DNA of 64,000 nt, from the NCBI RefSeq assembly GCF_007748035.1, contig NZ_CP036278.1, forward strand, positions 1,612,001 through 1,676,000, given 5' to 3'. Source of the stretch: Aeoliella mucimassa (GTDB taxonomy: Bacteria > Planctomycetota > Planctomycetia > Pirellulales > Lacipirellulaceae). A program made the translations under genes and the position numbers. Position 1 is the stretch's first letter, and each line of letters starts with the position of its first letter. The notes below the pieces were generated by a model. It ran no database searches. It saw only the letters and a program-made list of their open reading frames with translations, and was not told the DNA's origin. Below, piece after piece: positions 13,334-49,641 of this stretch.

Positions 13334-16264
13334 ATGCCAAGGATGGCAAAGCTCTCGTTTGAACACGGCGGAGTCGCATTCCGCTGTTCGCTCGCTGCGC
13401 TGATGGTGTTGGTTGCTGTGTGGACCGGCTGGCAGGCGATGGTGCCAGCCCCCGAGAGCGATGCGGCATTGCCACAGGCGGCTAAAGCTCCTTTGTTGCC
13501 AGTGGCCAGTACCACTCGCCAGGCCGATGCTGCTTATCAGGCGGAAGTGCAACGTCTGGTGGCCGAGGTCGCAACGGTCTGCCCCACGTCGGCCATGCAG
13601 CTCGAGCAAGAACTCCTCTCGTCGCCCACTCCGCGACCTTTGGCTAGTAGTAGCGGAGCGGTGGCTCCCAAGGTCGACCTTACCGCCCACCATCAGGTGC
13701 ATGCTGGTGCGACCCAGTCCAGTAAGATTCAGCCGAGTGCGACGATCACCAGTATTCGAGTTGCCCAAAACAGTCGCCCGCAGCGGATCGCTCCGCAGCG
13801 AATTGCCATGGGTAGCAATCCATCGCAGGGCGGCGGTAATTGGTTGGTCGACCCGAACGCCTGGTACGCCCCCGAGGACGCGGCCGCCAACGCGGGTAGT
13901 GTGTCGTCGGAGCCAACGTTGGAACCGGCCGACAGCGATGCTACGTCGCCAGCAGTGGAAGCGGCCCCCAGCGAACCAGCAGCCGCCCCGGTTACCCCCG
14001 AAGAATCGAATTCCATCACGCCCGACCGAATCCAGCGTTCCCCCCCGCTGCCGGTCGAGGCCAGTCCCCCGCCTGGCGAGCACGGTCCCTCGCTCGTCAG
14101 GCCGGTGGAGACTGCTCCCGCCACGTCGCCGGAGCCAAGCATTCCGCCGAAGACCGATGCAACGCCTCGGCGAATCGCTCCTCCACCTGCGGAACCTGCC
14201 ATCGCACCACCTGTGGTCGAACAACCTCCGATGGAGCAAGCACCAGTCGAGCAAACACCAGTTGAGCAACCTGCCGTTCCGAAGGCGCAGATGTGGGTCG
14301 AGTCCCCAAAGACTCAAGCCACCGAGAGTCAATCGCCGAACACCCAATCGCCGAATACTCAGCCCGCTGCACCCGTGCAACGCGAGTCGTTGCCGACGCC
14401 GCCGGCCGATCGGCCGAGTGCTCCTGCCGCACCGCAGAGTGCGCCGACAACAGTGTCGCCGCCTGCGCCGACAACTGGGCCCGCTGTTTCCCCCACAGCC
14501 CCCAGTACCTTCGCCCCGCCGGCCGCCCCTAACTTGCATGCTTCGGGCAGCGAGGCGGATCGTGCGTCGGCCTGGGCGCAGGCTCGTGCTGCGGGCGTGC
14601 CCGAGGGACTCGATCCCCACTTGGAACTGGTCGCTGAAGGTTGTTTTCCCTCGGCCAAGACCTGTGCGAAGTGCCATGAGAAGATCTACAACGAGTGGAG
14701 TTGCTCGAGCCATGCGTACGCGAACATCTCGCCGATGTTCCAGAAGTTCGAGCAACGCATCACCGAAGTGAGCCAAGGCACGATCGGTTACTTCTGTCTG
14801 CGATGTCACGCCCCGGTCGGTACGACGATGGGGCTGTCGCGCGACCTTCCGCTGTGGGAACAACCGGCCGTGGCCCGCGAAGGCATTACGTGCGTCGCCT
14901 GCCATCGGGTGAATCAGCGGTACGTGAAGACCAATGGCGAACGCCGACTCGTGCCCGGCGACGAGTTTGCTGCCATCTATGGCGGCAAAAGGGGCGAAGG
15001 AGTTGCCGAGGCCATCGCCCACAAGGATCAATACAAGGTGAAGACCTCGGCCGACGACAAAGGTCCCGGCCAGAACATCCATGTCGAAGGTCGCTACTTC
15101 GACCAACTCTCGCAGGCCGAGTACTGCACTACTTGCCATCAAGTGGCGGTGCATCCGGGCATCAAGCTCGAAGTGGTGTGGGAGCAGTACCGCGCATCGC
15201 CCGCTTACCGCCAAGGCATTACTTGCCAGGACTGCCATATGGGCAAAGTGCCGGGGCTCCCCAGCGGTTACGAGTGTTGTGCGATTGCCGAGGTCGGTGG
15301 CAAGACCGTTCGCGATAACGTGAAGCACTCGAACCATGTGTTCTATGGCCCGGGCTACTCGATCGCCCACCCCGGCATCTTCCCGTTCCATGTGAAGGCC
15401 GATCGGTGGAGCATCCCCGAGTGGTTGGAATTCGACTGGCGAGCCGGATGGGGCACCGACGAGTTCGAAGACCGCGTTGCCGATGGTGAGACCCAGGTGC
15501 GATTCCCCAAAGCGTGGGTCGAGGCCGACGATCGCTACGACGCCCGCGAGATCATCGACGACAACCTGAAGCGTCTGGAGGGGAAGACCGAGATTCGCAA
15601 GCAGGTGATGGAAAACGGCTCGCACGTCGATGGCCCGTTCTTCGACTGCACGCCGAGCGTCGGTCAGGATCTCGACCTCCATTACGTGGTGACCAACACC
15701 AACACTGGGCATAACCTGCCGACTGCCAGCCTGGGGGCCCAGCCGCAGCTGTGGGCGAACATCGTGCTGATCGGCCCCAGCGGTCAGCGGTTGTGGGAGA
15801 CCGGCTACACCGACCGCTACGGCGACGTGTGCGACATCCACTCGCGCGATGTGCGGGCGGGGCTGATGCCGTTTGACTCGCAGTTGTTCAATCTGCAGAC
15901 CATGTTCCTGATCACCGGCGCAGTCGGTACCGATCGCGAGTTCTACTTGCCGGTGAACGTGGAGTTCGACCAACTGCCATTCCTTCGCCCAGGAGCGATT
16001 CCGGTATCGGTGACGAACCACCCTCCGTTTATTCGGATGGAGAGCCGCTCGCTCGCTCCGCTGGGGCGCAAGAAAGTGAACTACAAGATTCCAGGCGAGT
16101 TGCTGTGCCAGCCGGGCCGGTATCGCTTGAGCTTCCGCATGCGTAGTCGGGCCGAGCCGATTTACTTCATGGACTTCTGCCGCGCGACCACCGAAATGAA
16201 GCGCGGCATGAATGAAGGCATTGTCGACATCCATCCCTACGCGGTGGAATTCACCGTTCAATAA
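13334..16264 (+). CDS. Membrane-anchored pentahaem c-type cytochrome (c554-like)
   Basis: 976 residues. An N-terminal hydrophobic segment (about 15-38) acts as signal anchor. It is followed by ~390 residues of Pro/Ala/Thr/Glu-rich linker with repeated VEQ/SPNTQ units. The cytochrome domain starts near 430 and shows five CxxCH haem sites (CAKCH, CLRCH, CVACH, CTTCH, CQDCH), the first near 444 and the last near 632. A C-terminal ~300-residue domain has no Cys motifs. The haem layout resembles cytochrome c554-type tetrahaem domains with an extra site. It is predicted to be periplasmic, with the long linker perhaps spanning the periplasm. The next gene, 27 bases on, encodes an outer-membrane barrel candidate. 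An alternative ATG lies at 13343. Confidence 0.88.
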   Translation: MPRMAKLSFEHGGVAFRCSLAALMVLVAVWTGWQAMVPAPESDAALPQAAKAPLLPVASTTRQADAAYQAEVQRLVAEVATVCPTSAMQLEQELLSSPTPRPLASSSGAVAPKVDLTAHHQVHAGATQSSKIQPSATITSIRVAQNSRPQRIAPQRIAMGSNPSQGGGNWLVDPNAWYAPEDAAANAGSVSSEPTLEPADSDATSPAVEAAPSEPAAAPVTPEESNSITPDRIQRSPPLPVEASPPPGEHGPSLVRPVETAPATSPEPSIPPKTDATPRRIAPPPAEPAIAPPVVEQPPMEQAPVEQTPVEQPAVPKAQMWVESPKTQATESQSPNTQSPNTQPAAPVQRESLPTPPADRPSAPAAPQSAPTTVSPPAPTTGPAVSPTAPSTFAPPAAPNLHASGSEADRASAWAQARAAGVPEGLDPHLELVAEGCFPSAKTCAKCHEKIYNEWSCSSHAYANISPMFQKFEQRITEVSQGTIGYFCLRCHAPVGTTMGLSRDLPLWEQPAVAREGITCVACHRVNQRYVKTNGERRLVPGDEFAAIYGGKRGEGVAEAIAHKDQYKVKTSADDKGPGQNIHVEGRYFDQLSQAEYCTTCHQVAVHPGIKLEVVWEQYRASPAYRQGITCQDCHMGKVPGLPSGYECCAIAEVGGKTVRDNVKHSNHVFYGPGYSIAHPGIFPFHVKADRWSIPEWLEFDWRAGWGTDEFEDRVADGETQVRFPKAWVEADDRYDAREIIDDNLKRLEGKTEIRKQVMENGSHVDGPFFDCTPSVGQDLDLHYVVTNTNTGHNLPTASLGAQPQLWANIVLIGPSGQRLWETGYTDRYGDVCDIHSRDVRAGLMPFDSQLFNLQTMFLITGAVGTDREFYLPVNVEFDQLPFLRPGAIPVSVTNHPPFIRMESRSLAPLGRKKVNYKIPGELLCQPGRYRLSFRMRSRAEPIYFMDFCRATTEMKRGMNEGIVDIHPYAVEFTVQ

Positions 16265-16291: not shown

Positions 16292-18013
16292 ATGAATTGG
16301 TATGCTTCCCCATGGTCTTTGCGACTTACTCGCCCGGTGTGGCTGAGTTTGTTGCTGTGCGCCATGAGTGGTAGCACCCTCGCCCAGCAGGCGAGTAGCA
16401 CGTTGTTCGACGCCCCCGCGGCCGTGCCCCCTTCGTCGGTCTACTGTCCCAGCGACGCACCCACTGAGGTTGGTTTTCAGCCCTCGGTGTTGCGGTTCGG
16501 GCTGTTGCCCCCTCCGCCGATGACGCCGACGTTTGGCGATGTCTGCCTGTCGGACAACGAGCCAGGTAAGCCAAGTGACGAGTCTGCCAAGCCGGGCGAG
16601 CCGCACGCGATGCATCACCCGCCCGCGAGCGATTGCCGCGCCGACCTGTCGACGTGCTACGAGAGCGACTTCAGCCACGACCCGTTCTACGACTCCTGCC
16701 CGCTCGACGTGGGGGCCGAGCTGAACGTGTACAATGGCAAGCACCTGGTGCCGGTGCAGTATCCATTGATGGAGCTTGGATTGCCGTTTTACCGCAAGGG
16801 ACCGATTCCCCCTTCGCTCGAAATCCTCGGTCCCACGAATCCAGTGCAGCAGAAGTTCTACGTGTACGGCGACTACCGCATCGGCGTCGCGCAGAACGAT
16901 CTGGTCGGCCGCGATATCACCGTGCTTGCGCATCGGCTGAATCTGGAAATTGATTACTGGCTTACCAGTACCGAGCGGTTTCATATGTTTAGTGGTCCTT
17001 TCCAGGAAGGGACGAACTTCATGCGGGTGGAGGAAGGGGAGTTTATCGAGGAGCTCGACTTCTTCGACCCCGATACCGACACCATGTTCTTCGAGGGCGA
17101 CCTCGGACAAATTGCCGGTGGGTTGAGTTCGTCGTATGCAGCGTTCGATCTGCCTTTCACGGTGGGTTTGGTTCCTTTGCTATTTCAGAATGGCATCTGG
17201 ATGCAGGATGCCATGTTGGGATTCGCCGCCACGGTGCCGGCGCAGAATCACGCGGGCCTTGACTGGTCGAATTACGATATCACCTTCTTTGCCGCTCTCG
17301 AAAAAGTAAGCTCAGGCGCTGCGCCTGGCGACGAAGACGCCATGCAGCTGTTCGGTGGAACCACCTTCATCGAAAGTCGAGGTGGCTACTTCGAGCTTGG
17401 TTACGCGTTTGCCAATCATCGCTCGAATAGCTCGCGCGATTACAGCAACATCGGCATCTCCTACACTCGGCGGTATCTGAACACCGTATCGAACTCGATG
17501 CGTGTGATCATCAACGCCGGCCAGGATGGCCCTCAGTCGGCTCGCACGGCCGACGGGGTACTGCTGATTGCCGAGAACACGTTGATTACGCCGATGCCAT
17601 ACAACTTACTGCCTTATTGCAATGTGTTTGCTGGCTTCGATCGTCCCCAGCCGGCAGCACGAGCGGCCGCGTTTGGCGGGGTTTTGTTTAACACTGGTAT
17701 TTTGTTTCAAAGCGACGCCCTGACTGGCTACCCGACGCTTGATGCTTCGGGGAACAATACGTTTGGCTTTGCGACAGGTGTCGACTTGTTGTCGCCGAAC
17801 TTTGACCAGCAACTCATTGTCGAGTTCGCCGCGCTCAAAGTGCATGGCTCCTCGGCTGGGCGGATTGCTGCTGGCGATCAGGCCGGCGTTGGCATTCGCT
17901 ACCAGGTGCCGATCACCAACGCTCACCTGCTACGGTTCGATGCCATGCATGGCTGGCTCGATAACTCCGAGGACATCAGTGGAGCCCGGGCAGAGTTTCG
18001 GTGGAAGTTCTAG
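16292..18013 (+). CDS. Predicted outer-membrane beta-barrel protein paired with the cytochrome
   Basis: 573 residues. It has a signal peptide of about 32 residues (hydrophobic WLSLLLCAMSGSTLAQ). The mature part alternates aromatic and glycine residues, as in barrel strands, and ends in an aromatic residue (FRWKF), the usual C-terminal signature of outer-membrane barrels. A Cys-containing acidic/Pro segment occupies about 35-130. No enzyme motif is seen. It directly follows the pentahaem cytochrome gene, so the two probably form an operon, and I infer a porin-cytochrome type electron conduit. Its stop codon abuts the convergent recQ stop with no spacer. Confidence 0.7.
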   Translation: MNWYASPWSLRLTRPVWLSLLLCAMSGSTLAQQASSTLFDAPAAVPPSSVYCPSDAPTEVGFQPSVLRFGLLPPPPMTPTFGDVCLSDNEPGKPSDESAKPGEPHAMHHPPASDCRADLSTCYESDFSHDPFYDSCPLDVGAELNVYNGKHLVPVQYPLMELGLPFYRKGPIPPSLEILGPTNPVQQKFYVYGDYRIGVAQNDLVGRDITVLAHRLNLEIDYWLTSTERFHMFSGPFQEGTNFMRVEEGEFIEELDFFDPDTDTMFFEGDLGQIAGGLSSSYAAFDLPFTVGLVPLLFQNGIWMQDAMLGFAATVPAQNHAGLDWSNYDITFFAALEKVSSGAAPGDEDAMQLFGGTTFIESRGGYFELGYAFANHRSNSSRDYSNIGISYTRRYLNTVSNSMRVIINAGQDGPQSARTADGVLLIAENTLITPMPYNLLPYCNVFAGFDRPQPAARAAAFGGVLFNTGILFQSDALTGYPTLDASGNNTFGFATGVDLLSPNFDQQLIVEFAALKVHGSSAGRIAAGDQAGVGIRYQVPITNAHLLRFDAMHGWLDNSEDISGARAEFRWKF

Positions 18014-23226: not shown

Positions 23227-23228
23227 TA

Positions 23229-23267: not shown

Positions 23268-23341
23268 CCGAAGTACTCCTTCGTGGGGGAAAGAATGGTC
23301 TGGAACGCACCCAATTGGCCCTGGTCACCGCGGGTGCCACT

Positions 23342-35771: not shown

Positions 35772-35800
35772 TGGGGGCATTTGAGGGCGGCTTGCATGAG

Positions 35801-36502
35801 CTACGTCTCGTCGGAACCAGCGGGAGTCTCATCCGCATCGGGGAAGCTCTCCAGAAATTTCTTTCCGAACCCTTTGAATACGTAAGGGGAAAACTGATTG
35901 GGTTGGGCTCCCACTGCTACTCCAATTTTCCACAGCACCAACTGGACTGGAATGAAAATAAAGTAAATGCCGAGCATAAAGAATATGGAGTATTCCTCAT
36001 CGGGCCATAGTTCTCTCACCACTGGCATACTGAAAAAGATAGCTCCAATCGCCCAACTGCTGCCGAGCCAGAATCGACGGAGTCGCTTGTGAAGCGAGCA
36101 TATGTGGAACTCAAAACCAATCTGGTCTCTTGGGCGAACAAGCCTGCTAAGTATCGAAGCCATTAGGAGCCCCGATAACATCACCCCAGTGTGAAAGCAG
36201 GCGGCTGCTAGCCGACTGAAATCGAGAAGGTCTTCTATCAGTACCATGCCTAGCATGAGCATGCCGAAGACAAACGCGACGAGCAGCAAAGTGGATAGCC
36301 ATGCAGTTTTGCGACGCATCGTGCGAACGACAAACTTTTCCGCTGCGGGGCGGTTGCAGGCGACGCATCGGTGGGGCGGATGGCTATCCTCCCACAGCAT
36401 CAGCGTTTTGCCATGGCGCACGACCTCCCCGTCGCCTTCGGGCTCGTAATCCACCGAGTCCAAGTCGGCCTGCGGTGCGGCGTAGGGATTCTCTTCGTTC
36501 AT
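35801..36502 (-). CDS. Planctomycete NPYAAPQ-type membrane protein
   Basis: 233 residues. It begins MNEENPYAAPQAD, a motif common at the N-termini of planctomycete membrane proteins. A cytoplasmic stretch with CVAC at about 49-52 is followed by four predicted membrane helices (two pairs, about 70-125 and 150-200) and a charged C-terminal tail. Function unknown. It is convergent with purC and divergent from aroC. Confidence 0.8.
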   Translation of the reverse strand: MNEENPYAAPQADLDSVDYEPEGDGEVVRHGKTLMLWEDSHPPHRCVACNRPAAEKFVVRTMRRKTAWLSTLLLVAFVFGMLMLGMVLIEDLLDFSRLAAACFHTGVMLSGLLMASILSRLVRPRDQIGFEFHICSLHKRLRRFWLGSSWAIGAIFFSMPVVRELWPDEEYSIFFMLGIYFIFIPVQLVLWKIGVAVGAQPNQFSPYVFKGFGKKFLESFPDADETPAGSDET

Positions 36503-36657
36503 AGCTGTTTTTCGCGGTAGCCAAGCAGTTCTCGGCGAATCGTACTACTTTTCTCTCGCCTGGCGAATCCCCGCAAGCTACGTGTCGCCGAAGGCCAGTT
36601 CCGATTATAATACTGGATTCCTCCATCCTGTTTCCCCCGATACCCCCCATCCTTCTC

Positions 36658-37859: not shown

Positions 37860-39065
37860 ATGCATCAGACGCACCAACGACGATTCTGCCGCTCGATTTT
37901 TTTGCTCGGTTGTATCCTGCCAACGCTAGCAGTGCTGGCCTGGACCACCTACGAGCGATGGCCAACTACGACCTCCGCACGCCTCAGCGAGCTGGAGCAC
38001 GCTCTCGACATGCGAGTGGTCGCAGCGCGAGTGACCACGCCGATGCCCGAGGTCTATCGGGCGAGCGGCTTTGAGCTGCGGAACGTCGAAACCAACGCAG
38101 TAGTGCTGACGGCCGATGTGGCGACGCTTGATCATCGCGGTGAGGTTCCTCAGGTAGAGCTGTCCGGTGTGAAGCTGGCCGCTGAGGAGCTAGCACTCGT
38201 CTCGGCGCTGGTCGAGCGGACACTCTCCGTCGATTGGCCGAAGCAGGTTGTGATCGAGATGACCGACCTCGCCTGGCTCGGGGCGGCACCCGCTGGTGCT
38301 AGCGAGCTGCTGGGTGAGGGTTGTTTGGTCGCTAAGCTGACGACGATGCCGCACGACGAGTCGACCGCTAGCCGTAACTGGAGCTTCCAACTTGGCGACA
38401 GCGGAGTGCGGCTCGAAGTCGATCGCAACCGTCAGATCACCCCGCCGGCGACGCGGATGGTGCTCGACACCGCCGGGGCTAGTTTGCCGACGCGATGGAT
38501 CGCCGAACTCGGCGCCGTGGTCGTGGATGGAGGTCTCGAGTCGCAGTTCGCCGGCAAGGTGACCATCACGCACACCGCGGATGGAGTGACCGGCCTGATG
38601 GAAGGCTCGCTCGACCAAGTGTCGCTGGCGACCGCCATGCAGATTCCGCTGCAGGCGACCGCGTCGATCGACCAATTGAAGCTTACCTGGCGCGACCGCC
38701 GCATCGAATCGGCCGAGGGGCTCATCGAAGCCGGCAGCGGCTCGATGCCCGGCAGCCTGGCGCGGCTCATGCAGTTTCTGTACGACGACTCGCAGCTCGG
38801 CGGGCAAGTGGCCGATGACCAGACGCTTGAGTTCCAACGGCTTGGTACCTGGTTTCGCTTGAACAATCGCGCCCTCGAGTTCGCTGGCGGTATCGACCGT
38901 GGCAACTCGATGCGGGCAATCATGCTCGGCGCTGAAGAGCAAGTGCTGTTCGGCAGTCCCACGAAGTGCGCTCCGCTGGGCGATGTGGCCACCGTGTTGT
39001 CGTGGCTCGGCACCGAGCAGGCGGACGAAGTCGCAGCGGCGCTGCCGCGAGCGATGCGTCGGTAG
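37860..39065 (+). CDS. Membrane-anchored protein of unknown function (AsmA-like features)
   Basis: 401 residues. A single N-terminal hydrophobic helix (about 10-30) anchors a large extracytoplasmic region made mostly of beta-strands, with phrases such as VQLSGVKLAAEEL and GVRLEVDRNRQITPP. These recall AsmA/DUF748-type proteins, though I cannot confirm that family. It starts 62 bases after aroC, and its 3' end meets the convergent cyclase gene with 4 bases between. Confidence 0.75.
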   Translation: MHQTHQRRFCRSIFLLGCILPTLAVLAWTTYERWPTTTSARLSELEHALDMRVVAARVTTPMPEVYRASGFELRNVETNAVVLTADVATLDHRGEVPQVELSGVKLAAEELALVSALVERTLSVDWPKQVVIEMTDLAWLGAAPAGASELLGEGCLVAKLTTMPHDESTASRNWSFQLGDSGVRLEVDRNRQITPPATRMVLDTAGASLPTRWIAELGAVVVDGGLESQFAGKVTITHTADGVTGLMEGSLDQVSLATAMQIPLQATASIDQLKLTWRDRRIESAEGLIEAGSGSMPGSLARLMQFLYDDSQLGGQVADDQTLEFQRLGTWFRLNNRALEFAGGIDRGNSMRAIMLGAEEQVLFGSPTKCAPLGDVATVLSWLGTEQADEVAAALPRAMRR

Positions 39066-39069: not shown

Positions 39070-40797
39070 CTACTTCATGCTTAGCAGGATGGTCGACCGC
39101 GTTTTCGTGTCGCGATCGTCTCCAGCTCGCCGGCCGAGTCGGCGGTGGTGTTCGTTGTCGACCTGATCGATCAAGAACTGCCGAGGCAGGTTCGCCAGGT
39201 CGGGCAGGTCCTGCAAGAGTTCCTTCGCCCGATCGAGATCGCCCGCTTCGAATTGCGTCAAAGCGTCTTCATAGTGCGAGATTGCGTCGAGCACCCGCTG
39301 ATCGCTCGTCGGCGGACTGATGGCAAACACGTCGATCGACGATTCGATGCCCGGCAGCTCCGCCTGGCAGAGTCGATAGTCGAGCAATTGCCCTGCGAGC
39401 CGCTGCACCACTTCGCGAGTCGCGACCACCGGCGAGCCGAGCAGCTTGGTGGCTTGCTCCAGCCGGCTGGCTAAGTTCACCGTTGCCCCGCGCGGGCCGT
39501 ACTTCAGTCGCACCGAGCTACCGATGTTGCCCACTTGGGCAGTGCCGGTGTGCAGGCCGATGCCGAGCTGCAACGGGGCGGTTAGCACCTGTTGCCATCG
39601 CTCCGACACGGCCGGCAAAGCTTGCTGCATGTCGAGCGCCGCCTGGCAGGCCAGCAGCGGATGATGCGATTGCTCGAGCGGGGCGTTCCACATGGCCGCC
39701 AGGCCGTCGCCGTAGTAGTCGATGAGTGTCCCTCCATGCTGCATTACGGCCGTGGTCAGCGCGTCCATCACTTCGTTCAATAGCACGTACGTATCGGGAG
39801 TCGAGAGCTGCTGGCACAGCGCGGCGAATCCACGCAGGTCGGCAAATAGCACGGTCACTTCCTGCTCGCGTCCCGCCAGCGTGGCGGTATCGAGTTCCAC
39901 CTGGGCGGCAATCGCCGGGGCGAACGCATGCTCGTAGGTCACTCGGGCGCGGGCCGCTTCGGCTTCCATGGCCAGGCGTTGCAGGCCGGCTCCCACGGAT
40001 TGGGCCAGCAGCTCGACGAGTTGGGCCTCCATGTAGCGGATGCCGCGGCGGCCATTCTGGTCGTGCGTCGCGCGGTACCCGTACACCATGCCGGTGACCT
40101 GATGCTGATCGTCATGGATGGGGGCCAGCACCAGCGAAGTGCCAGCGCCATGCCCGGTGTGGAACATCGTGTGGCCAGCGCTAGCTACCTGCTCGACGAG
40201 CAGCGAGTGAAACGACACACCGAACTCAGGGTGAGGCAAATGGCTGGCAACGATGTGCCAGGTGTCGCCATCCTTGCGAAGCACCATCGCCCCATCGAGT
40301 CCCACGGGATCAACCACGAACCGAGCCGCGTCGTCGAAGAACTCCGCCCGATTCGCCGACCAGCGATGCAGGGCGCCGAGGGCCTCGAACCACCGACCAA
40401 GGGTAGCCGATGCCGGACCTCCCTGCTGCGAGTTGCGGTTCGAGCGATGCTCGCGGGCCGCCAGGGCGATCAGCGGCCGACCGTCGGTCGACTCCAATTC
40501 GCGATCGGCAATTTCAATATGGGTATCGTCGACCAGCAAGTGCAGGTGATCGACCAGTTCGAGCCGGGTGCCGCGCGGCACCGCAGCGAAGGTTTCGAGC
40601 CAATCGACTCCGTCGCACTCCACCGCCACCTCGGCCGACGGGCGGTGGGGGATCAAGGTAAACGTGTCGGCGTGTGTCGGCGCTTGGGTCGCGTTTAGCG
40701 AGTGCCAGCGGCCCGACTCGTCGCGGGCGATCGATGCCAGCTGAGCAACGGAGTACTGCTGGTGCTGGCGCGGGTTGTAAACAGTCAGGTCGATCAT
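39070..40797 (-). CDS. GAF-domain class III adenylate/guanylate cyclase
   Basis: 575 residues from ATG 40797. The frame stays open upstream only as an antisense shadow. The N-terminal ~110 residues look like a degenerate FHA-type beta-domain. A GAF domain lies at about 150-275 (LDGAMVLRKDGDTWHIVASH). The class III catalytic domain (about 310-500) has metal-binding Asp residues in VLFADLRGF (near 314) and YYGDGLAAMW (near 361), and GIGLHTGTAQVGNIGS. A C-terminal helical tail follows. The product should be cAMP or cGMP. The substrate-specifying Lys region reads IDYYGD instead of the common DKYIGD, so specificity is uncertain. It is divergent from an operon that encodes cyclic-nucleotide-binding domains. 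Confidence 0.88.
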   Translation of the reverse strand: MIDLTVYNPRQHQQYSVAQLASIARDESGRWHSLNATQAPTHADTFTLIPHRPSAEVAVECDGVDWLETFAAVPRGTRLELVDHLHLLVDDTHIEIADRELESTDGRPLIALAAREHRSNRNSQQGGPASATLGRWFEALGALHRWSANRAEFFDDAARFVVDPVGLDGAMVLRKDGDTWHIVASHLPHPEFGVSFHSLLVEQVASAGHTMFHTGHGAGTSLVLAPIHDDQHQVTGMVYGYRATHDQNGRRGIRYMEAQLVELLAQSVGAGLQRLAMEAEAARARVTYEHAFAPAIAAQVELDTATLAGREQEVTVLFADLRGFAALCQQLSTPDTYVLLNEVMDALTTAVMQHGGTLIDYYGDGLAAMWNAPLEQSHHPLLACQAALDMQQALPAVSERWQQVLTAPLQLGIGLHTGTAQVGNIGSSVRLKYGPRGATVNLASRLEQATKLLGSPVVATREVVQRLAGQLLDYRLCQAELPGIESSIDVFAISPPTSDQRVLDAISHYEDALTQFEAGDLDRAKELLQDLPDLANLPRQFLIDQVDNEHHRRLGRRAGDDRDTKTRSTILLSMK

Positions 40798-40813
40798 GGC
40801 GCAACGGGGGCTA

Positions 40814-40828
40814 GTGCAGGGGTTGCAC
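40814..40828. promoter_or_regulatory. Palindrome in the cyclase/electron-transfer divergent promoter region
   Basis: GTGCAGGGGTTGCAC is a 5-bp inverted repeat with a 5-base spacer, 17 bases upstream of the cyclase start. It could be an operator, but half-sites this short occur by chance. Confidence 0.25.
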
Positions 40829-41061
40829 AATGATAGGTCGCATCGCCCGGGTGGGCTTTGTACCGCACGAATCAAGGCGAAACGCACTCGCCGAACAACC
40901 GCTATAACCGTGCTATCACCGCCGCGGCGACTGTTCTGGACACTTGCCAGCATTTGCGGAATAATCGCCGCGTTCACGGGACCGCTGCGCGCACTGCTGG
41001 TACGCCTCGCCCGTGGTGTTTGGCCCCATGACAAGGAAGGACGAGGCCAATTAGCCCGCTT

Positions 41062-42312
41062 TTGTATATCACCGGATGCGCTCTCTGCTTGCTGGCAACT
41101 GGCCAGGTGGCAAGTCTTGCGCTGAGTGGTTGGATGCGGATGCGCCGCCGGCAGCAGCAGTTCGCCGACGACAAGCAGGCGTTTCTCGAAGCGGTGGCCA
41201 TTACCGCACGAGCGTCTCGCGCCGATAAGCAGGACTACCTTGGTTGGACCGGGCAGCGCGAGCTGCGCATCTCGGCGATTGTCGACGAGGCGTTCGGCGT
41301 TAAATCGTTTTACTTCACCGATCCCGAAGGGGCTCCGTTGCCGAGCTTCGAGCCGGGGCAGTTTCTTACGTGTCACCTTGCGACGTCGGCTGGCGAGAAG
41401 CCGCTGGTGCGGTGCTACTCGCTCTCCGACCGACCGCGTGAAGAGTACTATCGACTTACCGTGAAGCTGTGCAGCCCGCCCGCGGATCGGCCGCAGCTTC
41501 CCCCCGGCCGCGGAAGCAGTCGACTGCACGCCATGCAAGTGGGCGACCGGCTGTCGGTGAGTGCCCCGCGGGGTGGTTTCTTCCTCGACCCGCGCCGTCG
41601 GCATCCGTTGGTGCTCATCGCCGGAGGCATCGGAGTCACGCCGATTGTCAGCATGCTGGCATCGCTCGCCGAAGCAGGCGATGATCGCGAAGTCTACTTG
41701 TTCTATGGGGTTCGCAATAGCAACGAGCATCCGCTGCGCGATCAGATTGAAGAGATCGTACGGGAACACCCGAATGTTCATCAGTTCGTACTCTACTCGC
41801 AACCGTTGCCAGACGACACGCAGCCAGACGACTATCATGAGCAAGGCCGGATCACGGTCGATTTGGTTCGCCGGATCGTGCCGACTGGAACATTCGACTA
41901 CTACTTGTGTGGTCCCGGCGGCTTGATGGAGACGATGGTCGAAGGCCTGCTGGCCGCCGGAGTTCCGGCCGATCGAGTTTTGTACGAAGCATTTGGGCCG
42001 GCCAGTATCCGTAAGCCGAGCGACACTGCCGAGCCAGCGACGGTTGCCGCAGGGCCTCCGACGAGAGTGGTGTTGGCCAACAGTCATCACGAAGTCGATT
42101 GGGACAATCATTGCGAATCGTTGTTGGAGTTGATCGAGGAACTCGGCGTGGCCATCGACTCGGGGTGCCGGTCCGGCAACTGCGGGATGTGTGCCGCTCG
42201 TGTGCTCGAGGGCGACATTGCAACGGTCAAGCAACCGGGGGCCCAGGCGCCCGAGGGGTACTGCCTGGCTTGCATCAGCGTGCCGAAGTCGCCATTGGTC
42301 TTGGATTTGTAA
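41062..42312 (+). CDS. Membrane-anchored FAD/NAD(P) and 2Fe-2S oxidoreductase
   Basis: 416 residues from a TTG at 41062. The frame is closed by a stop at 41029, and no ATG precedes the membrane helix, so a rare start (TTG, or ATT at 41050 after AAGGAAGG) is needed. One N-terminal helix (about 1-28) anchors a ferredoxin-NADP-reductase-like part: FAD motif RCYSLSD near 117, NAD motif GGIGVTPIVSML near 188, YYLCGPGG near 291. A C-terminal plant-type 2Fe-2S domain has CRSGNCGMC (about 369) and CLAC (about 401). Electrons would pass from NAD(P)H through FAD to the Fe-S cluster. It is the first gene of a five-gene electron-transfer operon. The next ORF starts 10 bases on. Confidence 0.88.
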   Translation: MYITGCALCLLATGQVASLALSGWMRMRRRQQQFADDKQAFLEAVAITARASRADKQDYLGWTGQRELRISAIVDEAFGVKSFYFTDPEGAPLPSFEPGQFLTCHLATSAGEKPLVRCYSLSDRPREEYYRLTVKLCSPPADRPQLPPGRGSSRLHAMQVGDRLSVSAPRGGFFLDPRRRHPLVLIAGGIGVTPIVSMLASLAEAGDDREVYLFYGVRNSNEHPLRDQIEEIVREHPNVHQFVLYSQPLPDDTQPDDYHEQGRITVDLVRRIVPTGTFDYYLCGPGGLMETMVEGLLAAGVPADRVLYEAFGPASIRKPSDTAEPATVAAGPPTRVVLANSHHEVDWDNHCESLLELIEELGVAIDSGCRSGNCGMCAARVLEGDIATVKQPGAQAPEGYCLACISVPKSPLVLDL

Positions 42313-42322
42313 GGGGTAGTGC

Positions 42323-43354
42323 ATGATCGGTAAAAGTTCGGGAGCCTTGGTTGTCATGTTGTTGGTGCTAGTCGGCATCGGCATGAGTGCGCTCATGGCC
42401 GCCGATAACCAGCCGGTGCCTGGGTACTCGCCACAGCAGTGCGATCCGGCAACCGTGGTCGGGCACGAAACCTGCATCAAGTGTCACGAAGCGGCCATGA
42501 AGCAATGGATGCAGACGCCGCACTATCGCACGTTCGACGCATTGCACCGCACGCCCGAGGCCAAACAGATTGCTGATAAAATGGGGCTGCGATCCATCAA
42601 ACGCAACGATACCTGCGTGACCTGTCACTATACGCGTCAGGTGGTTGGCAATCGCGAACGAGTGGTTGCCGGCGTAAGTTGCGAGTCGTGCCATGGGGGA
42701 GCGAAAAACTGGCTGGATCTGCACGCGGACTATGGGGGGCCGAACGTCACCCGCGAAATGGAAACTGCCGCGCATCGCGAGCAACGCCTGGAAGCGAGTA
42801 TTGCCGCTGGCATGAACAATCCCGAGAACCTTTATCTTGTCGCCCGCCAGTGCCTGAGTTGCCATACTGTGCCCGACGAGAAGCTGGTGAACGTCGGCGG
42901 GCACAAGGCCGGCACCGATCAGTTTGAACTCGTTGCCTGGTCGCAAGGCCTGGTGCGTCACAACTTTGTGCGTTCCGGGGGAGCGACGAACGCAGTCAGT
43001 TCTCCCGAGCGATTGCGAGTGATGTATGTCGTGGGGCAGATGGCCGACCTCGAAGCTAGTTTGCGAGCCACCGCGAAAGCCACCGAGATGGCTACGTACG
43101 GGCAGGCGTCTGCCGGCCGGGCCGCGCGAGCGAAGTCGCGTCTGTGGGAAGTGCAGCGTCGCATCGACCATCCGCTGCTCGGCAAGGCGCTCGACGCGGT
43201 GGCCACGCTGCAGCTGACGCTCGACAACCAGCAGGCGATGCTCGCAGCCGCTGATCAGGTGGCCGAGGCCGCTTACGAGTTTGCCACGGTCGATGGTAGT
43301 ACGCTGCAGGCGATCGATCGCTTGTTGCCAGCGGCGAATCAGTACAAGAACTAA
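42323..43354 (+). CDS. Tetrahaem cytochrome c (c554-like)
   Basis: 343 residues with a signal peptide or anchor (about 8-26). There are four CxxCH sites: CIKCH, CVTCH, CESCH, CLSCH. The spacing and HYRTFDALHRTPEAKQIADKM fit the cytochrome c554 domain seen in nitrifier and planctomycete redox proteins. The C-terminal ~130 residues are helical without haem motifs. Predicted periplasmic, it is the likely acceptor or donor for the neighbouring membrane proteins. Confidence 0.9.
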   Translation: MIGKSSGALVVMLLVLVGIGMSALMAADNQPVPGYSPQQCDPATVVGHETCIKCHEAAMKQWMQTPHYRTFDALHRTPEAKQIADKMGLRSIKRNDTCVTCHYTRQVVGNRERVVAGVSCESCHGGAKNWLDLHADYGGPNVTREMETAAHREQRLEASIAAGMNNPENLYLVARQCLSCHTVPDEKLVNVGGHKAGTDQFELVAWSQGLVRHNFVRSGGATNAVSSPERLRVMYVVGQMADLEASLRATAKATEMATYGQASAGRAARAKSRLWEVQRRIDHPLLGKALDAVATLQLTLDNQQAMLAAADQVAEAAYEFATVDGSTLQAIDRLLPAANQYKN

Positions 43355-43408
43355 CCCAGCGCTCCCGACTTTCCGACTTGCCAACCAACCAGAGTCACTC
43401 CCTTTCGT

Positions 43409-45139
43409 ATGTCGACTGCCGAAACCACCTTTGCCCGACCTGCTCGCTGGGATGTTCCTTTCAGCGAGATGATGAGCCAACGCGATGTCGAGCGACTGCT
43501 TGGTGTCGAGCCGTTTCGCAGTATCGACGCGAGTCGATTTCCGAAGTCGCTGCCGCTCAACGGTATCCTGAAAAACGACGCCCGCATCGTCGAGTTCCAG
43601 TCGGGCGATTTGGTGATTCGCGAAGGCGACTACGGCAGCAGTGCGTTCATGTTGCTCCATGGCACGTTGCACGTGGCCCTCGAAAGTCTGGCAGCGGCCA
43701 CCACGGCTCGCGCCCCGCAACCTCGTAAGAGCTGGCTGCGGGCGATTGCTCAGGTGTTTGCTTCGCAGCAGGTGCCAGAGATTCGCGAGCGGCCGGTTGC
43801 CGTGGGCCTCGACGACGACCTCGGCCTGCGCGGCGAGGGGGAACTCGCCCACGTGTTTCTGCAGGACGTGCCGCGGGTGCTCGATGGTAATCGCACGGCC
43901 AAGCTCGAGCCGGGTGAGTTCTTCGGCGAGCTGGCCGCTTTGGCCCGTTCGCCTCGCACGGCCAGCGTGTTTGCCGAGACCACGGCCGTGGTGCTCGAGA
44001 TCCGCTGGCAAGGCTTGCGCGACATCATGCGTCGCGCACCGGCCGTGCAGCAGCATATCGATCACCTGTATCGCACCAACAGCTTGCGAGTGCATCTTCG
44101 CGAAACACCGCTGCTGGCCGATTTGCCAGCCGCAGCGCTCGACGAAGTCGCCGCGGCGACCGAGTTTGCCTCGTATGGTAGCTTCGATTGGAACATCGAC
44201 TTTGCCAAGAGCGAAGCGATGTCGCCGCTCGAACAGATCGCTCGCGAACCGTTGATAGCCGAGGAAGGCTCGGTGGTCGAAAGCCTGAGGCTGGTGCGGT
44301 CGGGCTTTGTGCGGATGAGTCGCAAGTTCGGAGCAGGGCACCGCACGCTCGCTTACCTCGGCAAAGGCCAAGTGCTCGGGGCAGGGGAGTTGCTGGTGGA
44401 TGTCGACGAACACCCCATTCGACACGAGCACTCGTTGCGGGCCGTGGGGCATGTCGACTTGCTGGAGATTCCGATCGAAGTGGTTCGCAGTGCGGTGCTG
44501 CCACACCTGAGCGACGCCCGTCGTACCGAGTTGCAGGCCGCCTCGACGCGGGCGATGCCCGAGGTGAATCTCGACCGCCTGGTGGCCGACGACGAGCAGG
44601 CCGCGCCGACTCCGTTGGTGGACTTCATGGTCGACCAACGCTTGGTTAACGGCACCCAAGCCATGGTGATCGATCTCGATCGCTGCACCCGCTGCGACGA
44701 CTGCGTACGTGCTTGTGCGACCACCCACGATGGGAATCCGCGGTTTGTTCGCGAAGGTCCTCGCTTCGGGCGCTACCAGTTCGCAAGCGCCTGCATGCAC
44801 TGCACCGACCCGGTATGCATGATCGGCTGCCCAACCGGGGCGATTCATCGCGATATCGAAACTGGCACCGTGCGGATTAACGACTCGACCTGCGTGGGAT
44901 GTGCGACCTGTGCGAACAGTTGCCCTTATACGAACATCCAGATGGTGGAAGTGCGCGATCAACTTGGGCATCTGGTGGTCGATTCGATGCAGGAACTGCC
45001 GATCGTGAAAGCGACGAAGTGCGACTTGTGCAGCGACGGACTGGGAGGCCCTGCCTGCGTGCGGGCTTGCTCGCACGACGCTTTGGTGCGTTTGGATATG
45101 GCCGACTTGAACCAGGTGGCCAAGTGGATGAACCGTTGA
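43409..45139 (+). CDS. Two cyclic-nucleotide-binding domains fused to a four-cluster ferredoxin
   Basis: 576 residues, no signal peptide, so cytoplasmic. The first CNB domain (about 60-210) has the phosphate-binding cassette FGELAALARSPRTASV (about 171-186), with the key Glu and Arg in place. The second CNB domain (about 230-370) has LGAGELL but lacks the Arg, so it may not bind nucleotide. The C-terminal ~160 residues are an NrfC/HybA/DmsB-type ferredoxin with four Cys quartets: CTRCDDCVRAC, CMHCTDPVCMIGC, CVGCATCANSC, CDLCSDGLGGPACVRAC. This couples nucleotide sensing directly to an electron carrier. The second redox gene of the operon ends 54 bases upstream. A class III cyclase gene lies at the operon's divergent edge. 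Confidence 0.92.
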   Translation: MSTAETTFARPARWDVPFSEMMSQRDVERLLGVEPFRSIDASRFPKSLPLNGILKNDARIVEFQSGDLVIREGDYGSSAFMLLHGTLHVALESLAAATTARAPQPRKSWLRAIAQVFASQQVPEIRERPVAVGLDDDLGLRGEGELAHVFLQDVPRVLDGNRTAKLEPGEFFGELAALARSPRTASVFAETTAVVLEIRWQGLRDIMRRAPAVQQHIDHLYRTNSLRVHLRETPLLADLPAAALDEVAAATEFASYGSFDWNIDFAKSEAMSPLEQIAREPLIAEEGSVVESLRLVRSGFVRMSRKFGAGHRTLAYLGKGQVLGAGELLVDVDEHPIRHEHSLRAVGHVDLLEIPIEVVRSAVLPHLSDARRTELQAASTRAMPEVNLDRLVADDEQAAPTPLVDFMVDQRLVNGTQAMVIDLDRCTRCDDCVRACATTHDGNPRFVREGPRFGRYQFASACMHCTDPVCMIGCPTGAIHRDIETGTVRINDSTCVGCATCANSCPYTNIQMVEVRDQLGHLVVDSMQELPIVKATKCDLCSDGLGGPACVRACSHDALVRLDMADLNQVAKWMNR

Positions 45140-45232
45140 GCCGGACGAATCGTTAAAGCCTCCTCCACCGACGCATTGCTGCTTGGCCGTTTGACTACCC
45201 ATTGTTTGCTGACTGTTACCTGAATCGCTCGT

Positions 45233-46057
45233 ATGAAACCATTCGCCCGTCGCCGCCTTCGTTCGCTTGCCATCGCCTTTCTGGTAGTGGTCGGGCTGGG
45301 GTATTGGTTGCAGTGGATCGACCAAGGCCTCGGCCGCCGGTCGTACATGTCGGGTTACGTGCTGTATGGTCTGGTCGCCTTCTTGGCCGCGTTCAACGTC
45401 CGCAAAAAGTTGCCGACGTTGCCGCTCGGGAATGCCTCGACCTGGTTGCAGCTGCACATCTATGTCGGTCTGGTCACTGCTGGATTGTTTGTGATGCACA
45501 TCGGCTGGCGACTGCCGAACGGGTGGTTCGAGTGCATGCTGGCCACATCGTTTTCGATGACCACAGTTAGCGGCATCCTCGGATTGATCATGACGCGCCG
45601 CACGCCGCAGATGCTCAACCGGGTCCGCGACCAGGTGGTCTACGAGCGGGTGCCGATCCTGCGCCGGGCGTTGGCGGTTCGCTCGCGAGAGATGGTCATG
45701 CAGTCGGTCGCCGACTCCGGCGCGACGACGCTGGCCGATTTCTACGCCGGGCGGCTGTTCGACTTCTTCGCCCGCCCACGCCCGTTTGGCTACTACCTAA
45801 AGCCGTCGAGCACGCGTCGCAAGCGTCTGCTGTACGACATGAAACAGCTCGACCGCTATCTCTCGGTGCCCGAACGCGATGCCTGCGAGCAGTTGTTCGC
45901 CATGGTACGCGAGAAGGACGACCTCGACTTCCAGGAGATGCAGCAGCGCTGGGTGAAGCTGTGGTTGTTCTTGCATATCGCGTTGACCTACGTGCTGATA
46001 GTGTTGGCGACGCTGCACGGCGTGCTGGCGCTGTCGCATCGGGGGGACGTGCTATGA
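45233..46057 (+). CDS. Membrane b-type cytochrome-like protein
   Basis: 274 residues. About four hydrophobic helices: about 10-28, 35-52, 73-95 (LQLHIYVGLVTAGLFVMHIGW) and, after a ~130-residue cytoplasmic loop, about 243-265 (LFLHIALTYVLIVLATLHGVL). The paired His residues in the last two helices are placed as axial haem-b ligands, as in ferric-reductase or cytochrome b561-like proteins. It probably carries electrons across the membrane between the ferredoxin and the periplasmic cytochromes. The stop overlaps the next start as ATGA (46054-46057), so it is translationally coupled to the decahaem gene. Confidence 0.82.
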   Translation: MKPFARRRLRSLAIAFLVVVGLGYWLQWIDQGLGRRSYMSGYVLYGLVAFLAAFNVRKKLPTLPLGNASTWLQLHIYVGLVTAGLFVMHIGWRLPNGWFECMLATSFSMTTVSGILGLIMTRRTPQMLNRVRDQVVYERVPILRRALAVRSREMVMQSVADSGATTLADFYAGRLFDFFARPRPFGYYLKPSSTRRKRLLYDMKQLDRYLSVPERDACEQLFAMVREKDDLDFQEMQQRWVKLWLFLHIALTYVLIVLATLHGVLALSHRGDVL

Positions 46058-47934
46058 GGGAGAAACTGCCGAAGTCGAACATGGTGGGGTACGATCGCCC
46101 GCACCAACCGTGGGTTTGCGGCCGCCTGGCCGAGGGCGATCCGTGTGCGTTTGGTCCTAGTGAAAAAGGCATCTGCCCAGCGCTCGCTGAGTGCAAGCCG
46201 GTGGAGATCGATGGCCACTGGCAGTGCGACCGCCCCGCGACCCGCGGCGGTCCGTGCGAGGAGGGTCCTGCCGACCAGGGACATTGCTGTCGTGCGAAAA
46301 AGTGCCAACCTACTCGTAGTTTGCGTGCCAAGCGGGGAGTGATTGTTCGTGCGGCCATGGTGTTTGCTACTGGTGTCGTACTGATGATGCTCGGCGGCAG
46401 CGCCCGCAACGAATGGCTCGCTCCAGGGCCGCTCTGTTCGCAACACTCGCAAGTGCTGCAAGGTCAGGCGTGGGAAACCCGTTGCACGAGTTGCCATGCC
46501 GCGGCCGAGCACCAGGTCGGTAGCTGGTTCACCGCGGTAGTCGGTGCCAAGCTCGGGCCGGTGCAACCCACCAAGTGTCTGGCGTGTCACGACAAGACGA
46601 TCGACGCCGAGCGGGCGCTCTGGCCGCACAACGTGCCGGCCGACTACCTGAGCAGCCTGGCCGATCCGGTCCGCGAAGCTCATCATGGTCACCCGCCTGC
46701 GGAGCTGGCCTGCTCGGTTTGTCACCAGGAGCACCACGGCGCCGACCACGACCTGGCTGCCATGGCCGACGATCGCTGCCAGGCGTGTCACACGCAGCAT
46801 TATCATCGCTTCGACAGCGACCATCCTGAGTTCACCCGCTGGCCTTATCAGCGACGCACTCGCATTGCTTTCAATCACTCCACGCACCAAGGCAAGCACT
46901 TCGTCGAGAAGCAGCATGAGTTCACTTGCCAGCAGTGCCATGTGGAGGATGCATCCGGCGTGGTGCAAATGACGCTTGGTTACGACGCTTCCTGTGCGGA
47001 GTGTCACAACAGCGACATCGCTACCAGCTCGGCCAGCGGCGTGACTGCGGTCGCGCTGCCGATGCTCGATACCGAGTTGCTCGCCGAGGCGGGGCACGAC
47101 CTTGCTGACTGGCCGGCCCGTGCGACTGGCGACTTCGATGGCAAGCTGCCGGCAGTGCTCAAGCTGCTGCTGGCCGACGATCCGGCCGCCCAGCAGGCGT
47201 TTGCCGTGCTGGGACCCGATGCCGACTTCTACGACGTCGACATCGACGATCCCGAGCAACTCACCGCCGCGGCCAACCTGGCGATGGCCATCCAGCGGCG
47301 AATCGATCTACTGCAATCACCCGATTCGTCCGAGTCGGCGGAAGTACAAGGGCTCACCGCCGAACTGGTTGCCGCCGCGCGACTCGCCTGGTCCGGCGAC
47401 GACTCCCCGGCCGAGGCTCCCACACCCCGCTCCGGCACCTGGTGGGTCGACAACGTCGGCCTGTCGATCCGCTACCAACCGACCGGGCACGCCGACCCGC
47501 TGCTCAAGGCCTGGCTCGAAGCGATCGTGTCGATCCGCGACCAACCGCTCCGCGAGTCGCTGCTCGCCGAGTTCACCGGCCCCGGCGCATTGGGTCGCTG
47601 CACGGTGTGTCATAGCATCGACTCCAGCGACCTCTCCACAGGGCTGCAGATTCATTGGAAATCGCACGACCGCCGCGGCGACCCGCGCGGCTTCACGCGG
47701 TTCTCGCACGCCCCGCACTTGCTGCCGAGGGAGCTCCGCGATTGCACGGCTTGCCATGCACTCGACCCGAACGCCAGCACCGAAGGAAGCTACTCCGGCT
47801 ACAACCCGCAGGCGTTCACCAGCGAGTTCGCCGCCATCAATAAGGCCACGTGCGCGGCGTGCCACCGCTCGGGCGCAGTAAGCGACCGCTGCACGGAATG
47901 CCACAATTACCACGTGGATTGGCCCAGCGAGTAG
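46054..47934 (+). CDS. Decahaem cytochrome c with duplicated N-terminal Cys module
   Basis: 626 residues from the ATG overlapping the upstream stop. Residues ~20-90 hold two tandem copies of a four-Cys pattern, C-x8-C-x2-GP-x4-x2-C-x5-C-x-P. The first runs from VCGRLAEGDPC to ECKP and the second from QCDRPATRGGPC to KCQP. They precede a transmembrane helix (about 96-116), so the module is cytoplasmic and may bind a metal or Fe-S cluster. The periplasmic part has ten CxxCH motifs (CTSCH, CLACH, CSVCH, CQACH, CQQCH, CAECH, then CTVCH, CTACH, CAACH, CTECH after a ~190-residue gap). Many extra His residues suit bis-His ligation. Last gene of the operon. Confidence 0.92.
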   Translation: MREKLPKSNMVGYDRPHQPWVCGRLAEGDPCAFGPSEKGICPALAECKPVEIDGHWQCDRPATRGGPCEEGPADQGHCCRAKKCQPTRSLRAKRGVIVRAAMVFATGVVLMMLGGSARNEWLAPGPLCSQHSQVLQGQAWETRCTSCHAAAEHQVGSWFTAVVGAKLGPVQPTKCLACHDKTIDAERALWPHNVPADYLSSLADPVREAHHGHPPAELACSVCHQEHHGADHDLAAMADDRCQACHTQHYHRFDSDHPEFTRWPYQRRTRIAFNHSTHQGKHFVEKQHEFTCQQCHVEDASGVVQMTLGYDASCAECHNSDIATSSASGVTAVALPMLDTELLAEAGHDLADWPARATGDFDGKLPAVLKLLLADDPAAQQAFAVLGPDADFYDVDIDDPEQLTAAANLAMAIQRRIDLLQSPDSSESAEVQGLTAELVAAARLAWSGDDSPAEAPTPRSGTWWVDNVGLSIRYQPTGHADPLLKAWLEAIVSIRDQPLRESLLAEFTGPGALGRCTVCHSIDSSDLSTGLQIHWKSHDRRGDPRGFTRFSHAPHLLPRELRDCTACHALDPNASTEGSYSGYNPQAFTSEFAAINKATCAACHRSGAVSDRCTECHNYHVDWPSE

Positions 47935-48687: not shown

Positions 48688-49641
48688 ATGGAAAACAGTT
48701 TGCAAAGTACTTGGATTGGGGTTGATGTTGCCAAGCATCATTGGGACGTGGTCGTTGCCGGGCAAACCCAGGTGCATCACTTCCCTGCCGACCAAGAGGG
48801 ATGCCAGCAACTTCAGCAGTTTCTCGCTCAGCATCAGGTAACCCATGCCTGCCTCGAAGCGACAGGAGGCTACGAACGAATGTTAGCCGACTTCCTTCGT
48901 GAGCAAGGGATCGTGGTGAGTATCGCCAACCCACGTCAGATTCGCGATTTCGCCCGTACTCAAGGCCAGCTTGCCAAGACCGATCGTCTCGACGCGCTAG
49001 TGATCGCTCGTTATGCGGTACTGATGCAGCCCAAGAAGACCAAAAAACCCTCGGAAAACGAGCGGAAACTCGGTTCCCTCCGGACACGTCGGCAGCAAGT
49101 GAGCGATGCTCTGACGCGGGAGAAAAACCGGTTGGGTACACAGCACGATGACTTGGTGCGCCAGTCGATTGAAGAAGCCATTGACTTCTACCAACGACAG
49201 CTTGAACAGCTCGATCAACAGATCCAACAGCTATTACAAGCCGACGATCAGTTTCGAGAACGCTCGGCACTGCTGACCTCGGTGCCTGGCGTGGGGGCAA
49301 CGACGGCCGCAGCCTTGATCGCTCACTTGCCAGAGCTGGGATCGCTTAATCGTGGCGAGGCGTCACGTCTTGCAGGCCTGGCACCGATTAACCGTGATAG
49401 CGGAACCTTGCGAGGCAAGCGGATGATTGGCGGCGGCCGAGCGGTCGTACGCAAGATGCTCTACATGCCCACTCTCGTCGCGACCAAGCATAACCGAGTC
49501 ATTCGCGAGCACTACCAGCAGCTGCTGCAACGAGGCAAAGCCAAAATGATCGCCCTTACCGCCTGCATGCGAAAACTACTACTGATACTCAATGCCATGA
49601 TTAAAACAAATTCCACCTGGAATGACCCCCGGGAGACTTGA
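48688..49641 (+). CDS. IS110-family transposase (DEDD recombinase)
   Basis: 317 residues. N-terminal RuvC-like DEDD domain: WIGVDVAKHHWD (Asp 13), ACLEATGGYE, and AKTDRLDALVIARYA. A coiled-coil linker (about 125-185) follows, then the Tnp domain with SVPGVGATTAAALIAHLPELG and LAGLAPINRDSGTLRGKR, whose Ser is the presumed nucleophile. These enzymes use a bridge RNA to pair donor and target DNA. The frame is complete. GGAAGGG lies 5-10 bases before the ATG. Confidence 0.95.
   Translation: MENSLQSTWIGVDVAKHHWDVVVAGQTQVHHFPADQEGCQQLQQFLAQHQVTHACLEATGGYERMLADFLREQGIVVSIANPRQIRDFARTQGQLAKTDRLDALVIARYAVLMQPKKTKKPSENERKLGSLRTRRQQVSDALTREKNRLGTQHDDLVRQSIEEAIDFYQRQLEQLDQQIQQLLQADDQFRERSALLTSVPGVGATTAAALIAHLPELGSLNRGEASRLAGLAPINRDSGTLRGKRMIGGGRAVVRKMLYMPTLVATKHNRVIREHYQQLLQRGKAKMIALTACMRKLLLILNAMIKTNSTWNDPRET

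Follow-up and report, generated by a model that had tools for sequence, protein, structure and literature searches.

A putative porin-cytochrome conduit with a predicted cyclic-nucleotide site in its iron-sulphur subunit, in Aeoliella mucimassa and other bacteria

The control of extracellular electron transfer that is known to us acts via transcription or via the supply of parts. Among the candidate systems for such transfer is PCC4, in print since 2017 as a putative porin-cytochrome conduit, which consists of a porin and of cytochromes with 4, 5 and 10 haems, and whose inner-membrane protein has five helices, an SGxxG motif and two WX3HX13H motifs (He et al. 2017, PMC5566968, here and below as excerpted). 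In its subgroup II, which counts Zetaproteobacteria and Planctomycetes among its hosts, a gene for an iron-sulphur (Fe-S) protein of family PF13247 precedes the gene for the inner-membrane protein, and a redox gene precedes the one for the tetrahaem cytochrome; PCC4 is presented as putative, with no experimental characterisation in the excerpted text (PMC5566968). Other putative conduits were described in Verrucomicrobia and Planctomycetota (excerpts of PMC5615132 and PMC10732223). Here we examine a 64,000-nucleotide stretch of DNA from Aeoliella mucimassa (contig NZ_CP036278.1), "the window", in which a five-gene operon at 41062-47934 encodes a similar set of proteins, the Fe-S protein carrying two cyclic-nucleotide-binding (CNB) domains, next to a divergent gene for a class III nucleotidyl cyclase (Table 1). 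Our full model, to which we would give an even chance, is that of a PCC4-type conduit through which electrons flow outward and in which a nucleotide acts as a switch at the CNB protein.

Composition and conservation of the putative conduit

As in PCC4, the window has cytochromes with 4, 5 and 10 haems (by count of CxxCH motifs), and its inner-membrane protein CYTB has SGxxG, here SGILG, and two WX3HX13H motifs; as in subgroup II, the PF13247 gene (CNB) lies directly upstream of CYTB and a redox gene (RED) upstream of TET. There are two differences, namely that the window has its parts in two groups 21 kb apart instead of a single cluster, and that its set includes the divergent cyclase. Likened in this way to the published description, and not by sequence alignment, the window set is quite probably a PCC4-type conduit. 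Thus, where the original prediction could name no system of this composition, a published candidate, PCC4 subgroup II, matches it, and the conduit itself is not new. What we could not find in print is the proposed nucleotide control: the excerpted main text of PMC5566968 has no mention of cyclic nucleotide, cAMP, cNMP, CRP or adenylate, and in the main texts of the open-licence literature we identified, going by the matches listed, no report that a cyclic nucleotide controls a conduit of this kind.

Table 1. Features of the conduit locus; positions are those of the window
Feature	Positions	Strand	Details
PENTA: five-haem cytochrome, Pro-rich N-terminal stretch	13334..16264	+	5 CxxCH; PF13435 1.3e-7
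BARREL: predicted outer-membrane porin partner	16292..18013	+	51% to L081 protein; C-terminal Phe family trait
CYC: class III nucleotidyl cyclase, diverged N-terminal region	39070..40797	-	575 residues; PF00211 E=2.4e-18
Divergent intergenic region, CYC to RED	40798..41061		264 bp
RED: FAD/NAD(P)H reductase with C-terminal [2Fe-2S] domain, probably membrane-anchored	41062..42312	+	PF00970, PF00175, PF00111
TET: tetrahaem cytochrome c, c554 family, hydrophobic N-terminus	42323..43354	+	PF13435 8.1e-15; four CxxCH
CNB: CNB-CNB-4x[4Fe-4S] protein	43409..45139	+	PF00027 E=5.4e-24; PF13247 3.8e-9; 16 Fe-S cysteines
CNB1 phosphate-binding cassette, residues 171-187 of CNB	43919..43969	+	Glu174 102/102; Arg183 101/102
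CYTB: inner-membrane protein, two His pairs at b-haem spacing	45233..46057	+	two WX3HX13H and SGILG
DECA: decahaem cytochrome c, 9-Cys N-terminal tail ahead of single hydrophobic helix	46054..47934	+	ten CxxCH

A contig search with profile A1 gave 537 relatives of the CNB protein, of which the best 80 by similarity to the window (L071-L150, from a scan keyed on the Fe-S motifs and not on the nucleotide cassette) come from Planctomycetota, Opitutaceae and other Verrucomicrobia, Alphaproteobacteria, Nitrospina relatives, Zixibacteria, Latescibacterota, SAR324, Poribacteria and Mariprofundus; these taxa are read from record titles, which can be wrong for metagenome-assembled genomes (MAGs), two of them reading Akkermansia. 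Our set of 102 proteins comprises the window, L031-L050, L053 (kept though its match is split) and L071-L150, and includes two pairs of identical sequences (L032/L103 and L034/L113); it leaves out L051, L052, L054 and L055, whose CNB matches are split or cut, and the second tier of remote relatives, L056-L070. Within the window's phylum, 392 genomes were searched for CNB matches; the 1e-20 level was reached in 77, and many of these match the remote tier alone. In the phylum of L138, 20 of 77 genomes match at 1e-80.

Gene calls and Pfam bear out the six-gene parts list of the original prediction, with its divergent cyclase and the ATGA shared by the CYTB stop and the DECA start; the gaps in the operon are 10, 54 and 93 bp, with that one overlap. 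The gene order recurs in relatives: RED-TET-CNB-CYTB-DECA, on one strand, was observed at 55 of the 102 loci (the window and loci cut by contig ends being counted) and, by record titles, in several phyla, which exceeds chance, and CYTB follows CNB directly wherever both are present in the tally.

RED has a single N-terminal hydrophobic helix and the motifs RCYSL, GGIGVTP and CRSGNCGMC, and TET has four CxxCH motifs in 90 of 91 proteins; at L043 (11184-13545) a tandem pair of tetrahaem genes stands where others have one. CYTB gave a sub-threshold Pfam match to cytochrome b561 (2.3e-4) and three profile matches in PDB (E 0.17-0.61). Its SGxxG and WX3HX13H motifs were found in 87 and 93 of 99 called proteins, and the ten CxxCH motifs of DECA in 83 of 97 called orthologues, counts that are lowered by the mechanical calling of open reading frames in GC-rich loci, some of them in the wrong frame. 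Hydropathy scans of CYTB counted 3 helices in the window and L033, 4 in L071, 2 in L081 and 5 in L109 and L142, the published number for PCC4 being five. In DECA, Pfam recognises MtrC/F-like and C7 domains, and the haem part had no match in PDB. Its N-terminal tail (46054-46335) has about 90 residues with nine cysteines in two similar CG..C..GP...G.C....C.P repeats, followed by the only hydrophobic helix; eight of the nine cysteine positions are kept in 73-87 of 97 rows, the tail is lost in some Pirellulaceae-titled rows, and it had neither a PDB match at E up to 1 nor an assigned Pfam domain. By the positive-inside rule this tail should face the cytoplasm, and it could therefore serve as a metal site or as an electron acceptor for the CNB protein.

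Clustering of the neighbours of the 102 operon loci revealed two further families, a pentahaem cytochrome and a protein of about 460-700 residues, each present at 47 loci. In the window their members, PENTA and BARREL, lie 21 kb ahead of the cyclase gene, whereas at other loci, such as L045-L050, all parts stand in one cluster. The operon is therefore probably only the inner half of the conduit, PENTA and BARREL being its predicted outer-membrane half, and the original prediction, which let electrons end at periplasmic haems, overlooked this pair at 13334-18013. Pfam had no match for BARREL or for three relatives within its family, whose C-terminal residue is Phe in 21 and aromatic in 23 of 24 aligned proteins; a C-terminal Phe is a usual mark of outer-membrane barrels, and we consider the fold a candidate barrel only. 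PENTA had one weak match in PDB, to cytochrome c552 (5.4e-7). In the phylum set, where searches for CNB proteins, cyclases and pentahaem cytochromes scored up to three candidates per genome and the 270- and 280-bit cuts were chosen after the tables were seen, 31 of the 35 genomes whose CNB match reaches 270 bits have the pentahaem cytochrome (at 1e-60 or better), versus 19 of 357 others (Fisher p 1.5e-28, with genomes treated as unrelated and kinship uncorrected); a CNB match of the remote tier is present in 12 of these 19. Where the operon has a linked cyclase and no pentahaem gene nearby (22 loci, the window excluded), 16 genomes were searched, and in 15 of them the pentahaem gene is found elsewhere.

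The nucleotide site and the divergent cyclase

The original prediction placed the nucleotide site in the Fe-S subunit itself, and its cassette is indeed there. In the first CNB domain (CNB1), Gly173, Glu174 and Arg180 are present in all 102 aligned proteins and Arg183 in 101; the 16 Fe-S cysteines, each kept in 101-102, show the same constancy. The cassette Glu and Arg are key residues of the cyclic-nucleotide pocket, and the window protein has both, together with the family score of a CNB domain. When its profile was compared with PDB, cGMP- and cAMP-dependent protein kinases led the CNB-domain matches by whole-chain score, single stretches being weaker (best 8.5e-4 among the alignments listed); the Fe-S part matches HycB3 (1.1e-23) and DmsB (6.7e-18), and no NCBIfam model reached its cut-off among the 25 of 76 matches listed. 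From these residues we consider it very probable that CNB1 binds a cyclic nucleotide.

One may also consider an alternative explanation, namely that the CNB domains are structural or serve another ligand, and that the cyclase signals to some other protein, such as a Crp-type regulator. The second domain (CNB2) has a residue other than the cassette Glu at position 325 in at least 97 of the 102 proteins (position placed via alignment with remote relatives; the count covers the Glu position and not the CNB2 Arg), the window's genome encodes, besides the CNB-Fe-S protein, a Crp-type regulator and a CNB-patatin protein, and the cyclase also occurs in genomes that have no CNB-Fe-S protein. Against this, the near-invariance of the Glu and Arg of CNB1 across 102 proteins is ill explained by a purely structural role, and we regard this alternative as unlikely.

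As for the identity of the nucleotide, we had guessed cGMP from Thr184 and the Asp of the cyclase. This guess was dropped, as residue 184 varies (S 13, T 12, V 6 among 31 linked rows), and it is also undercut by the Gly at the second substrate position of the cyclase, which is shared with a solved protein that bears the name adenylate cyclase (6fht).

By eye, all 12 of the remote relatives L056-L067 have the Glu and Arg of the CNB1 cassette, and 11 of them have a Gly-Glu pair in CNB2; in L068 and L069, of the same tier, the CNB1 Arg is absent. L056-L067 form a wider CNB-CNB-ferredoxin family, some members of which are fused to Nqo3-like domains and stand near NuoE/F-like and multihaem cytochrome genes.

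A gene of the CYC subfamily is divergent from the operon at 31 of 81 callable loci, its centre lying 3.3-5.2 kb upstream of that of CNB. Among the 80 loci L071-L150, 19 of which are too short to call, a search with the window cyclase found it linked at 23 of 34 callable Planctomycetota-titled loci (L078 being counted on a shorter flank) and at none of the 27 callable loci with other titles. A profile search added matches at three loci: L137, L093 (8.5 kb upstream, same strand) and L053 (7.8 kb upstream); a cyclase fragment also lies near the contig end of L125, about 10 kb downstream. The L137 gene (Alphaproteobacteria; 6220-7077), divergent and 4.2 kb upstream, occupies the corresponding slot; it encodes a distant class III cyclase (E 1.9e-8) from outside the planctomycete subfamily and may reflect chance or a separate recruitment. 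On a FastTree tree of the CNB proteins (101 rows, L125 being excluded because it contains X, with 20 rows not callable for the cyclase), the cyclase trait requires 6 changes versus 24.8 for shuffled labels, which implies mostly shared descent with gains or losses. Between CNB proteins and cyclases the correlation of distances is 0.94, and between CNB and CYTB it is 0.92; with six close loci removed, the values are 0.89 and 0.90. The divergent cyclase is a trait of Planctomycetota that follows the divergence of the operon, yet is not exclusive to it.

In class III cyclases, Asp residues bind the metal, Asn and Arg act in the transition state, and the substrate residue is Lys in adenylyl and Glu in guanylyl cyclases. 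The window cyclase carries both metal Asp residues, the Asn and the Arg, and among 33 aligned rows the metal Asp is present in 32 (the remaining row is a fragment), the Arg in 33 and the Asn in 29. The N-terminal region corresponds to an FHA domain in the distant linked relative L037 and to a GAF domain in 2-3 of 12 members scanned; a 1136-residue frame for CYC in the list of open reading frames is an upstream extension, and we prefer 575 residues. We count in favour of the model that the genome has two PF00211 matches, the second one weak, next to three CNB proteins. In the intergenic region between CYC and RED there is one sigma-70-like match, versus 0.5 (standard deviation 0.7) in shuffles of the scanned stretch.

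Direction of electron flow and its possible gating

In the route that we infer, RED would take up electrons from NAD(P)H on the inner side of the inner membrane and hand them from FAD to its 2Fe-2S cluster. The next carriers would be the CNB protein, with its four 4Fe-4S clusters, and CYTB, whose b haems would conduct the electrons through the membrane; DECA and TET would then relay them to PENTA and BARREL at the outer membrane, and the final acceptor would lie outside the cell (Mn(IV), Fe(III) or humics, for example). The order NAD(P)H, Fe-S, cytochrome b, haem, which the original prediction shared, is likely given the domain content and two traits of the remote relatives: of six CNB-Fe-S proteins scanned, four carry Nqo3-like domains, and a NuoE/F-like gene is present at 5 of 15 loci, counting that of the query.

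The opposite direction has also to be weighed, in which electrons from an extracellular donor such as Fe(II) or Mn(II) would pass from PENTA/BARREL to DECA, CYTB and finally quinone or NAD(P)+, and in which a nucleotide may still gate the flow. The operon is found, in the same gene order, in L109, a MAG titled Mariprofundus, a genus of iron oxidisers. Inward flow is also the model proposed for PCC4 in the excerpted text of He et al. 2017 (PMC5566968). The excerpts of a 2026 paper that cites PCC4 (PMC13264449), in turn, suggest that most of its conduit-bearing genomes are those of heterotrophs that may export electrons. What argues for the outward direction in our data is that the nearest solved sequences to RED are the NAD(P)H-oxidising flavohaemoprotein, followed by NqrF, that Nuo-type parts accompany the distant relatives, and that a search for RuBisCO, and for no other carbon-fixation route, gave no match in the window's genome or in 11 of the 13 other operon genomes searched. 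Because of these three observations we judge outward flow to be fairly probable and inward flow somewhat unlikely.

The neighbouring cyclase would then supply a cyclic nucleotide; bound to CNB1, this would change, in whichever sense, the coupling of the Fe-S subunit to its partners, so that the protein itself, and not transcription alone, would determine the flow. That nucleotide binding gates electron flow is, going by these sequences, slightly more probable than that it does not. The logic may also be reversed, the redox state of the Fe-S clusters altering nucleotide binding by CNB1 and the protein serving as a redox sensor or a nucleotide sink, with no bulk current. Its anatomy would be identical, and gene order alone does not prove a current; yet the Fe-S part resembles electron-transfer subunits of the DmsB and HycB type, and CNB stands directly ahead of CYTB at every locus of the gene-order tally that shows the two, which makes this reversal highly improbable.

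Several observations weigh against our model of an outward, nucleotide-gated conduit, among them the published proposal of inward flow given above. The conserved cassette points to a binding site and not to gating. At the substrate position of the cyclase, the window protein and 31 of the 33 rows have Asp, which is neither the canonical Lys nor the canonical Glu, and the transition-state Asn is missing from 4 of the 31 linked cyclases. No RED is found beside the operon in L037-L042. The expectation that cyclase and operon co-occur in relatives stands for part of the Planctomycetota and fails at the other 50 of the 81 callable loci, which have no adjacent cyclase of this subfamily; a universal tie is thus ruled out. 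Exclusivity is ruled out as well, since close cyclases (at least 280 bits) occur in 14 phylum-set genomes, 7 of which have no CNB-Fe-S match, and in the 7 that have one, the cyclase is adjacent in three (the window's own genome, G152 and G377). In G003, another of these 7, it lies on the same contig about 17 kb away. The operon genome G394 has no PF00211 match at all. We had also considered any class III cyclase in the genome as support; this is uninformative, because such a match is present in 21 of the 22 operon genomes that have no linked cyclase.

If the model is true, a ligand site within the carrier would allow control within seconds and provide a direct handle for experiments and bioelectronics, and a function would be suggested for this gene set in Planctomycetota, Verrucomicrobia, Nitrospina relatives and Proteobacteria (by record titles). 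More tentatively, and with a little less than an even chance, a second messenger that binds within the carrier may act as an allosteric switch of extracellular electron transfer in many bacterial phyla, the same switch serving the wider CNB-CNB-ferredoxin family, including members fused to complex I-type NADH-oxidising parts.

Neighbouring genes and known systems

Upstream of the cyclase, at 34884-37797, are a SAICAR synthetase-like gene (by eye) and a chorismate synthase gene, found beside the operon at 6 and 8 of the 102 loci, respectively. Adjoining the cyclase at 37860-39065 is a gene for a 401-residue protein that has no Pfam match and has relatives near the operon at six other loci. Transposase-like genes (by eye) lie at 22084-26291, between the conduit halves, and at 48688-49641, just past the operon, and may be the cause of the split between the halves in the window.

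To our knowledge, MtrCAB, PioAB and MtoAB have no CNB-Fe-S subunit or cyclase. They share with the window set a porin and multihaem cytochromes across the outer membrane, a likeness taken from the excerpted PMC5566968 and general knowledge and not from sequence comparison. RED has FAD and NAD domains in common with NqrF and flavohaemoprotein, but its 2Fe-2S domain is at the C end and it stays below the NqrF cut-off (103.7 versus 295 bits). An N-terminal helix is present in NqrF as in RED. The Fe-S part of the CNB protein resembles the four-cluster ferredoxin subunits DmsB, NrfC and HycB, which, unlike it, lack CNB domains. In Shewanella, cAMP-CRP controls anaerobic respiration by transcription, so that a cyclic nucleotide and extracellular respiration are common to both cases, whereas in the window the predicted nucleotide site sits in the electron carrier itself.

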